A DNA stretch of 64,000 bases, from the NCBI RefSeq assembly GCF_000745125.1, contig NZ_JQNF01000005.1, positions 248,001 through 312,000 of the forward strand. Direction: 5' to 3'. The DNA is from Carnobacterium jeotgali MS3. Lineage in GTDB: Bacteria > Bacillota > Bacilli > Lactobacillales > Carnobacteriaceae. Below are positions 23,049-52,093 of this stretch, in pieces. The translations under genes and the position numbers were made by a program. The notes under the pieces were generated by a model. That model saw only the letters and a list, made by a program, of their open reading frames with translations. It was not told the DNA's origin and made no database searches. Position 1 is the stretch's first letter. Every line of letters begins with the position of its first letter.

Positions 23049-24846
23049 AAAAAATAAAAACATTCCAGAAAATGGTCCAATGTCAAGTAGAAAACCGGAT
23101 AATTTTAAAGAATCTATTGGTAAGTTAGTAAATTACTGTAAATCTTATATGATTTATATAATAATAGCATTTGTATTTGCTATTATCGGTACCGTATTTA
23201 ATTTAATAGGTCCTGATCGTCTTAGTGAAATTACGGATGTGATCACTGAAGGTATTACAGGGGAAATTGATTTAGAAAGAATTAAAAGTATTGCATTATT
23301 ATTAGTGACATTATACGTTCTTGGAGTTATTCTGTCTTATTTCCAAGGGTTTATTATGGCAACGGTCACTCAAAATGTAACGAAGAAATTACGTACAGAT
23401 ATTTCGTCAAAAATCAATCGGTTGCCTTTACGCTACTTTGACAGTAACAATCATGGTGATATTTTAAGCCGTGTTACAAATGATGTCGATACAATTGGCC
23501 AAACATTAAACCAAAGTTTGGGTCAATTAGTGACAGCTATTAGTTTGTTTACAGGTTCGTTGATTATGATGTTTTATACAAATGTACCGATGGCTATTGC
23601 GGCTATTTTGTCAACTATTCTAGGTTTTTCATTAATGATTATGATTATTAAACAATCTCAAAAATACTTTAGACAACAACAAAAGAGTTTAGGGGAATTA
23701 AATGGTCATGTAGAAGAAATCTATACGGGGCATAATATTGTAAAATCATTTAATGGTGAAGAAGCAGCTATTAAAGAATTTAATGTCATCAATGACACTT
23801 TATTCGATAGCGCATGGAAATCGCAATATATTTCTGGTCTAATGATGCCTTTAATGAATTTCATTGGGAACTTTGGATACGTCGTTGTGTGTGTAGTAGG
23901 AGCTTATTTAGCGTTTAATGATCAAATTACTTTTGGTGTGATTGTTGCCTTTATGATGTATATCCGTTTCTTTACACAACCTCTTTCTCAAATTGCGCAA
24001 GCTTTTACAAGTTTACAATCGGCAGCAGCAGCTAGTGAACGTGTTTTCAACTTCTTAGAAGAAGAAGAATTAGAAGTTGAAACAGGAAAACCAACTTCAT
24101 TAGGTACGGTCAAAGGAAATGTGACATTTGATCATGTTAAGTTTGGTTACAATCCTGATCGCTTAATCATCAATGATTTTTCTCTAGAAGCTAAAGCCGG
24201 TCAAAAAATTGCAATTGTAGGTCCTACAGGCGCAGGTAAAACAACATTAGTAAACTTATTGATGCGTTTTTATGAAGTGAATAGTGGAGAAATCTACATT
24301 GATGGAACACCCATCTCTAGTGTGACACGTGAAGCTTTGCATGAACAATTCTGTATGGTATTACAAGATACTTGGTTGTTTGAAGGAACAGTGAGAGAAA
24401 ATATCGTCTACAGCAAACAAGGAGTAACCGATGAAGCAGTTGTCAATGCTTGTAAAGCAGTTGGTGTTCATCACTTTATTCAAACATTGCCACACGGTTA
24501 CGATACGATTCTAGATGATACAACAAGTTTATCAGCTGGTCAAAAACAATTAATGACAATTGCTCGTGCTATGGTAGCAGATGCACCATTATTGATTTTG
24601 GATGAAGCAACAAGCTCAGTGGATACGCGTACTGAAATTATTATTCAAAATGCAATGGATCACTTGATGAATGGAAGAACATCATTTGTGATTGCTCATC
24701 GTCTATCTACAATTAAAAATGCAGATTTAATTATTGTGATGAAAGACGGAGATGTAGTAGAAAGTGGAAACCATGAAGTTTTATTGGAACAAAATGGTTT
24801 TTATGCTGATCTTTATAATAGTCAATTTGATCAAGAAGAAGAATAA
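23041..24846 (+). CDS. Heterodimeric ABC multidrug exporter, catalytic subunit (BmrD/LmrD type)
   Basis: The 601-residue partner half-transporter. Walker A (GPTGAGKTT), the Walker B catalytic Glu (LLILDEATSSVD) and the switch His (IAHRLS) are intact, but its signature is LSAGQKQ instead of LSGGQ. Combined with the Asp Walker B of the first subunit, one composite ATP site is degenerate and one is consensus, as known for asymmetric exporters. The start is a GTG at 23041 inside the end of the previous gene, behind GGAGG. The structured RNA element at 24.86 kb begins 15 bases after its stop. Confidence 0.92.
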   Translation: MSKKNKNIPENGPMSSRKPDNFKESIGKLVNYCKSYMIYIIIAFVFAIIGTVFNLIGPDRLSEITDVITEGITGEIDLERIKSIALLLVTLYVLGVILSYFQGFIMATVTQNVTKKLRTDISSKINRLPLRYFDSNNHGDILSRVTNDVDTIGQTLNQSLGQLVTAISLFTGSLIMMFYTNVPMAIAAILSTILGFSLMIMIIKQSQKYFRQQQKSLGELNGHVEEIYTGHNIVKSFNGEEAAIKEFNVINDTLFDSAWKSQYISGLMMPLMNFIGNFGYVVVCVVGAYLAFNDQITFGVIVAFMMYIRFFTQPLSQIAQAFTSLQSAAAASERVFNFLEEEELEVETGKPTSLGTVKGNVTFDHVKFGYNPDRLIINDFSLEAKAGQKIAIVGPTGAGKTTLVNLLMRFYEVNSGEIYIDGTPISSVTREALHEQFCMVLQDTWLFEGTVRENIVYSKQGVTDEAVVNACKAVGVHHFIQTLPHGYDTILDDTTSLSAGQKQLMTIARAMVADAPLLILDEATSSVDTRTEIIIQNAMDHLMNGRTSFVIAHRLSTIKNADLIIVMKDGDVVESGNHEVLLEQNGFYADLYNSQFDQEEE

Positions 24847-24919
24847 AATAAAAGGATCTATATTTTTTAGTGTTGATAGATGAATTCAGTTCATGCTTAA
24901 TACTTCTGGAGGAATAGGA

Positions 24920-24937
24920 TTGCTTGAAGCCTTGTAA
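24920..24937 (+). CDS. Micro-ORF M-L-E-A-L in RNA copy 1
   Basis: The codons TTG CTT GAA GCC TTG TAA follow GGAGG at the ideal 7-base spacing. The second element has TTG CTT GTA GCC CTG TAG at the same position and spacing (51831-51848), so the start, length and stop are kept while the Leu codon and stop codon change synonymously. This looks like a leader peptide or a ribosome-loading site. Whether it is translated is unknown. Confidence 0.4.
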   Translation: MLEAL

Positions 24938-25082
24938 AGTATTCAATGCGAATGACACAGCCTTAACGCTTTAGCGATTAAGCTGTGTTTGAGGCTTAAG
25001 ACGGTACCAGGGCTCTTACAAGCAAATCCGTCTATTCCGAAAGAATTTTTAGAAGCAGCCACACTATTTGACGAAGAGCCAA

Positions 25083-25124
25083 ACAAAAAAACCGTTCAAG
25101 AAATTTCTTGAACGGTTTTTTTGT
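25083..25124. terminator. Bidirectional terminator after RNA copy 1
   Basis: A perfect long palindrome centred at 25103/25104 has the GC-containing core AACCGTTCAAG paired with CTTGAACGGTT, flanked by A and T runs. It serves the RNA on the plus strand and the convergent glsB-like gene on the minus strand. Confidence 0.92.
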
Positions 25125-51742: not shown

Positions 51743-51764
51743 GCTATGAAATAGTGCCAAAAGA

Positions 51765-52030
51765 GGCTCGATACTTTTTAGTGTGGATAGATGAATTTAA
51801 TTCATGCTTAACACTTCTGGAGGAATAGGATTGCTTGTAGCCCTGTAGGAAAATGAAAGGGTAGCACTGTGGGCACTCATGCCCAAGTCTATCATGTTTG
51901 TAAGCGGCTGAAGCAGCAACAACCATGACAACTTTAGGCTTAAGACGGTACCAGGGGCTCTTACAAGCAAATCCGTCTATTCCGAAAGAATTTTTAGAAG
52001 CATTCACACTATTTGACGAAGAGCCCTAAA
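51765..52030 (+). ncRNA. Candidate structured RNA, copy 2, with micro-ORF
   Basis: Related to 24861-25124. The 5' hairpin changes to AGTGTG/AACACT and ATGAATT/AATTCAT, keeping pairing. GGAGG (51819-51823) precedes a five-codon ORF at 51831-51848. The middle is longer and unrelated in sequence, with hairpins such as TGGGCA/TGCCCA (51870-51885). The 3' domain is nearly identical: AGACGG (51943-51948) with CCGTCT (51973-51978), crossing GGGCTCTT (51955-51962) with AAGAGCCC (52019-52026). No strong terminator follows, unlike copy 1. It lies 270 bases before mreB in the same direction, so a role as a leader is possible. Confidence 0.6.
51831..51848 (+). CDS. Micro-ORF M-L-V-A-L in RNA copy 2
   Basis: TTG CTT GTA GCC CTG TAG, 7 bases behind GGAGG. 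Against copy 1, one codon changes the residue (Glu to Val), one is a synonymous Leu change and the stop switches TAA to TAG. Translation is not proven. Confidence 0.4.
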   Translation: MLVAL

Positions 52031-52093
52031 AGATTGTTTGATTTTTTAGTAGACTGTTTCATTTTGGTTACTTATATATGGAATTACTTAAAT

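Follow-up and report, generated by a model that had tools for sequence, protein, structure and literature searches.

A non-autonomous ISL3-type element family with a putative structured RNA in Carnobacterium jeotgali and other Lactobacillales

Two stretches in the window, a 64,000-nucleotide piece of the Carnobacterium jeotgali MS3 genome (GCF_000745125.1, contig NZ_JQNF01000005.1, positions 248,001 to 312,000), are shown by their ends and flanks and, for copy 1, by an empty orthologous site to be insertions of one short non-autonomous mobile family of about 230-260 bp, often abutting intrinsic terminators. This structural and mobility identification is held with high confidence. Comparative sequence analysis supports the view that the core of the element is a structured RNA with genuine covariation that belongs to no known Rfam family. 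The explanation as a whole, in which an ISL3-type MITE family carrying this RNA is moved in trans and the RNA serves the element, is considered probable.

Both stretches had been recognised in a first-pass annotation as sharing 5' and 3' blocks with differing middles, which is correct, and both match the covariance model of the family, copy 1 at 24900-25051 (143 bits) and copy 2 at 51811-51996 (75.8 bits). The annotation placed copy 1 at 24861-25124, whereas the element proper occupies 24854-25080. The features are as follows.

24854 to 25080, plus strand: copy 1, a complete non-autonomous ISL3-type element with an internally deleted core (one core hairpin gone), defined by its ends, 8-bp duplication and the empty site in a congener.
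24846 to 24853, no strand: left target-site duplication of copy 1, AAATAAAA, identical to the right duplication at 7/8 positions.
25081 to 25088, no strand: right target-site duplication of copy 1, AAACAAAA, present once at the empty site of genome G004.
24854 to 24879, plus strand: left (L) ISL3-type end of copy 1, GGATCTATATTTTTTAGTGTTGATAG, matching the L end GGCTGTATAATTTTTGGTGTGGATG of the ISL3 insertion sequence (IS).
25059 to 25080, plus strand: right (R) ISL3-type end of copy 1, CCACACTATTTGACGAAGAGCC (reverse complement GGCTCTTCGTCAAATAGTGTGG), matching the R end of the ISL3 IS.
24911 to 24934, plus strand: 5' strand of the long core stem of copy 1, a covarying stem.
25008 to 25038, plus strand: 3' strand of the same covarying stem.
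24955 to 24988, plus strand: core hairpin A of copy 1 (ACACAGC...GCTGTGT), 99.5% paired family-wide with strong covariation (helix 7).
25085 to 25122, plus strand: host terminator of the exporter operon, outside the element; G004 has the terminator without the element.
51765 to 52025, plus strand: copy 2, a complete element with an alternative centre, defined by its ends, duplication and covariance-model match.
51757 to 51764, no strand: left target-site duplication of copy 2, CCAAAAGA, identical to the right duplication at 7/8 positions.
52026 to 52033, no strand: right target-site duplication of copy 2, CTAAAAGA.
51847 to 51935, plus strand: alternative centre of copy 2, also found in other copies, in G001 (L210) and in G215 (L343).

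The copies measure 227 and 261 bp, and a transposase ORF is absent from both; with no encoded ISL3 transposase they are not autonomous ISL3 insertion sequences. Copy 1 is a deletion variant without hairpin B and copy 2 has a different centre, so that the covarying core is largely not common to the two, and other copies represent the family better than either. The alternative centre (GCACTGTGGGCA..TGCCCAA..ATGTTTGTAAGCnGCTGAAGCAGCAACAACCATGACAA) is itself apparently structured and stands in place of the usual core in several copies, some of them from other species (L024, L028, L040, L046, L210 and L343).

A BLAST search of the own genome with copy 1 returned 52 matches at about 40 places, and the description of a two-copy element was thus mistaken; a two-copy non-coding RNA gene is ruled out by these roughly 40 copies with target duplications. 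The family is carried by all five congeners, with 5 to 54 BLAST matches and 6 to 97 covariance-model matches, the latter counts possibly including weak echoes on the reverse strand from the near-palindromic fold, of the kind seen for the window copies. The elements end in GGCTCTATACTTTTTAGTGTGG.../...CCACACTATTTGACGAAGAGCC and are flanked by 8-bp duplications: among 91 copies with locatable ends, flank identity averaged 0.69 as opposed to 0.37 (sd 0.019) for shuffled flanks, the duplication was perfect in 28, and the peak lay at k=8 only. The target octamers are rich in A+T (86%) and have no sequence consensus. An intrinsic terminator, strictly defined, adjoins 15 of the 46 sites resolved by target-site duplications (TSDs), compared with 0.7% of 1520 random positions, a lenient control as such positions are largely coding, and with none after shuffling.

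The insertion of copy 1 can be read directly from the closest congener, G004, whose exporter gene is 94% identical. There the empty site TAAAACACAAAAAA is followed directly by the same terminator hairpin, which means that the perfect terminator formerly credited to copy 1 belongs to the host. Orthologous sites in congeners are empty or differently occupied. At the site downstream of the exporter, four congeners (L435-L438) show sequence that runs into a stretch of Ts; these are apparently decayed left ends of ISL3 and suggest a recurrent insertion site. Head-to-tail tandem pairs of elements about 240-264 bp apart were seen in G001 (L156, L196, L210, L211, L212 and L218), and in L156 the duplicated unit includes a 16-bp flank.

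The assignment to the ISL3 family comes from complete insertion sequences in the same genus. The TelA neighbour, which matches a Carnobacterium MAG at 81%, points to a Carnobacterium-like genus. Genes for ISL3 transposases are present in the own genome, G001 and G004 and not in G002 and G005; the Pfam family PF01610 finds two in the own genome and gives 18 matches in G001, and NCBIfam NF033550 likewise identifies the transposases as ISL3 (302-306 bits). The complete ISs of the own genome and G001 are 1499-1524 bp long, with the L end GGCTGTATAATTTTTGGTGTGGATG, the R end GGCTCTTCGTCAAATGGTGTGGATG and perfect 8-bp duplications, and both of these distinct ends recur, with unchanged polarity, in the window element. 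Since ends, polarity and duplication length all match, the element is classified as a non-autonomous ISL3-type element (MITE). Compared with ISL3-family ISs (NF033550, PF01610), the window copies are alike in ends, L/R polarity and the AT-rich 8-bp duplication; the differences are that the window copies lack a transposase gene and that the RNA is absent from most ISL3 ISs. AT-rich 8-bp duplications and circles with a 5-bp junction have been described for enterococcal ISL3-like elements (PMC5559704), and both are also cited for ISL3-like elements from PMC3812183.

One of the ISL3 ISs of 1499-1500 bp lies within a copy of the element (L066, duplication ACTATTCA). In G001, two candidate units with ISL3 ends (L260 and L261) have perfect 8-bp duplications and measure 2567 bp, more than the 1500-bp IS; the extra length is possibly passenger DNA. 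Copies in another family, L331 and L333, keep the ISL3 ends with perfect TSDs, and some Aerococcus-type copies (L316-L320) have no recognisable ISL3 ends. The latter, together with L327 and L329, share other outer boundaries, TGAGCAGG...CATGCTCA, without ISL3 ends.

Between their ends, most copies carry an RNA-like fold in which a long stem closes a junction with hairpins A and B (RNAalifold, 114 copies) and the sequences GAAUUA, UUUGA, GAGAC..GGCUC and CGGUnCC are nearly fixed. In a tree-based count, pairing was kept in 64 of 70 double changes, compared with 4-16 of 11-28 when the partners were slid. Across families, 93.6% of pair cells in alignment A2 were paired as opposed to 66.9% after shuffling. 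Both sides had changed in 471 cells, compared with 113 in shuffled and 67-123 in slid controls. Having been fitted to the model, A2 leans towards structure, a bias that the register and shuffle controls and the unfitted tree alignment guard against. The covariation thus exceeds both the phylogeny and the register controls. It is strongest in the internal hairpins A and B (helices 7, 9 and 10), which are not terminal repeats, and the loop sequences are nearly invariant across families.

On the plus strand, G-U pairs outnumber A-C pairs across families (58 against 29), as expected for selection at the RNA level. Within the genus this tolerance of G-U over A-C is weaker: changes from Watson-Crick to G-U numbered 194 and those to A-C 156, compared with 286 and 287 at unpaired sites, a modest excess (Fisher p ~0.12 over all pairs). 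The structured-RNA interpretation of the first-pass annotation therefore holds for the covarying core, and not for the 5' hairpin on which it was based. Over 28 copies no kept double change was found at any pair of that hairpin, its sixth pair is mostly a G-A mismatch, and the change between G-C and G-T is one-sided. What survives of the original observation is a pair of real stretches with shared ends; its copy number, boundaries, 5' hairpin covariation and terminator do not. That annotation had taken many covarying homologues as a sign of a structured RNA and a transposon match as a sign against it, and both were obtained: covarying homologues are numerous in Lactobacillales, and the copies have ISL3-type ends and 8-bp target duplications.

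Covariance model R1 found the core in 11 of 18 genomes of the bacterial family and in 44 of 398 Lactobacillales genomes, representing 21 of 80 genera, while model R2 found it in no genome of a phylum-wide sample besides that of the window. The earlier statement that no recognised RNA family applies agrees with Rfam release 15, in which the RNA had no match at the gathering threshold and none that was meaningful at a relaxed threshold, where matches lay mostly on the host terminator. A pattern search of a named-genome collection that probably holds no near relatives gave no match, nor did a search of plasmid and phage DNA with the window element; with a divergent core, the sole match in plasmid and phage DNA was an Aerococcus tenax record. 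None of the pattern matches in IMG/VR was confirmed by the covariance model, which gave one weak match only on 80 named TelA loci. In the open-licence literature, nothing on point was found for ISL3 together with a MITE, a bridge RNA or a non-coding RNA.

The same RNA also occurs in two lineages of complete ISL3 transposons, between the stop codon of the transposase and the right end, in nine copies that all have perfect duplications (model E 2e-25 to 6e-9). Six of them, about 1.78 kb long (L350-352, L368, L379 and L411; one interrupted), belong to G104, inferred to be an Aerococcaceae genome because cores of the same family match Aerococcus tenax. The second lineage, of 1810-1818 bp, carries a divergent RNA in G035, G283 and G020 (L398-400; R2 E 4e-12 to 6e-9). 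Most other complete ISL3 ISs examined have 33-122 nt after the stop codon and no RNA, so that ISL3 transposition in general can do without the RNA.

Some further features of these transposons were recorded. Both hairpins of the divergent RNA in L398-L400 end in the same GAGAC..GGCTC motif, and the repetition suggests a duplicated binding or tertiary motif. The ISL3 ISs L403 and L406 have a 280-288-nt 3' non-coding region with a long near-perfect palindrome and no RNA there. The interrupted copy of G104, L350, contains a second transposase-like gene (417-aa ORF), apparently of a different IS family.

A mechanism can be proposed in which an ISL3 transposase moves the elements in trans. In an excised circle with a 5-bp junction, TTGACN of the R end and TATnnT of the L end would lie 7+5+5 = 17 bp apart and may form a promoter, a geometry taken from the published 5-bp junction and not from any circle observed for this element. 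A distance of 17 bp is a standard sigma-70-type spacing, and among the 46 TSD-resolved copies TATnnT is present in 43 and TTGACN in 31. Such a promoter would read the plus strand, the one favoured by G-U, through the RNA. In the own genome, the plus strand is antisense to the neighbouring genes in 20 cases, convergent in 13, sense in 5 and divergent in 4, and being mostly antisense, the element may be little transcribed without a circle promoter. The RNA might then act in the transposition of the element or its control, by binding the transposase, or by acting on the transposase transcript to stabilise or process it. Matching flanks are also found around short derivatives that have no core (L029, L030 and L039) and appear to have transposed, so that a core in cis is probably dispensable. 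That the RNA works in the element's own transposition or control rather than in a host pathway is the favoured reading, proposed tentatively. The wider proposition, that in Lactobacillales the ISL3 DDE family encodes a structured RNA working with the transposase under a circle-only promoter, and that non-autonomous elements spread by keeping it, is rather doubtful.

Part of this picture could be had without a functional RNA. MITEs often fold as long hairpins, and in an ordinary MITE the pairing would be a long imperfect terminal inverted repeat, kept by transposase recognition together with quasipalindrome (hairpin-templated) mutation. The outer stems are indeed the terminal repeats, whose pairs show no strand bias (34 G-U, 40 A-C), and pairing in these stems could be partly due to inverted-repeat recognition. 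As an account of the whole element, however, this is improbable, given covariation that peaks in the internal hairpins, nearly invariant loops, a two-to-one excess of G-U over A-C across families and a fold that persists despite unrelated stem sequences. The element resembles Correia, ERIC, RUP, BOX and EFAR repeats in being short, high-copy and intergenic with terminal inverted repeats and RNA folding, and differs from them by strong covariation between families, fixed loops, a presence in 21 genera and the occurrence of the same RNA in autonomous ISs.

There is also little probability in a host-beneficial role, with copies kept downstream of genes as 3' UTR or terminator-like elements for transcript stabilisation or termination, a role that has been suggested for some other intergenic repeats. 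It would fit the position of most copies next to a gene 3' end and the enrichment of adjoining terminators. However, those terminators are the host's and already stand beside the copies, most copies run antisense to the gene upstream (20, against 5 sense), congeners have the orthologous sites empty or differently occupied, and neither the RNA in complete ISL3 ISs nor the G-U strand is accounted for. That the RNA serves as a guide or bridge, leading the ISL3 transposase to its targets as in IS110, is very improbable, despite the structured RNA lying in the non-coding IS end beside the transposase gene and being kept by non-autonomous derivatives, since one RNA faces diverse AT-rich octamers, most ISL3 ISs have none, and the partner is not an IS110-type recombinase. 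The ISL3 transposase is a DDE enzyme, unlike that of IS110. The omega RNA of IS200/IS605 and the bridge RNA of IS110 are likewise structured RNAs encoded in an IS next to the enzyme gene; here, the enzyme family differs, no Rfam homology was found and there is no sign of guiding.

RNA-assisted transposition is best documented in IS200/IS605 and IS110-type elements. A conserved, order-wide covarying RNA linked physically to ISL3 transposons and to their MITEs would bring an RNA-bearing element into the DDE group and, with its hundreds of copies, would provide a large natural data set on the role of the RNA. It would also account for a set of repeats in lactic-acid bacteria that lack annotation.
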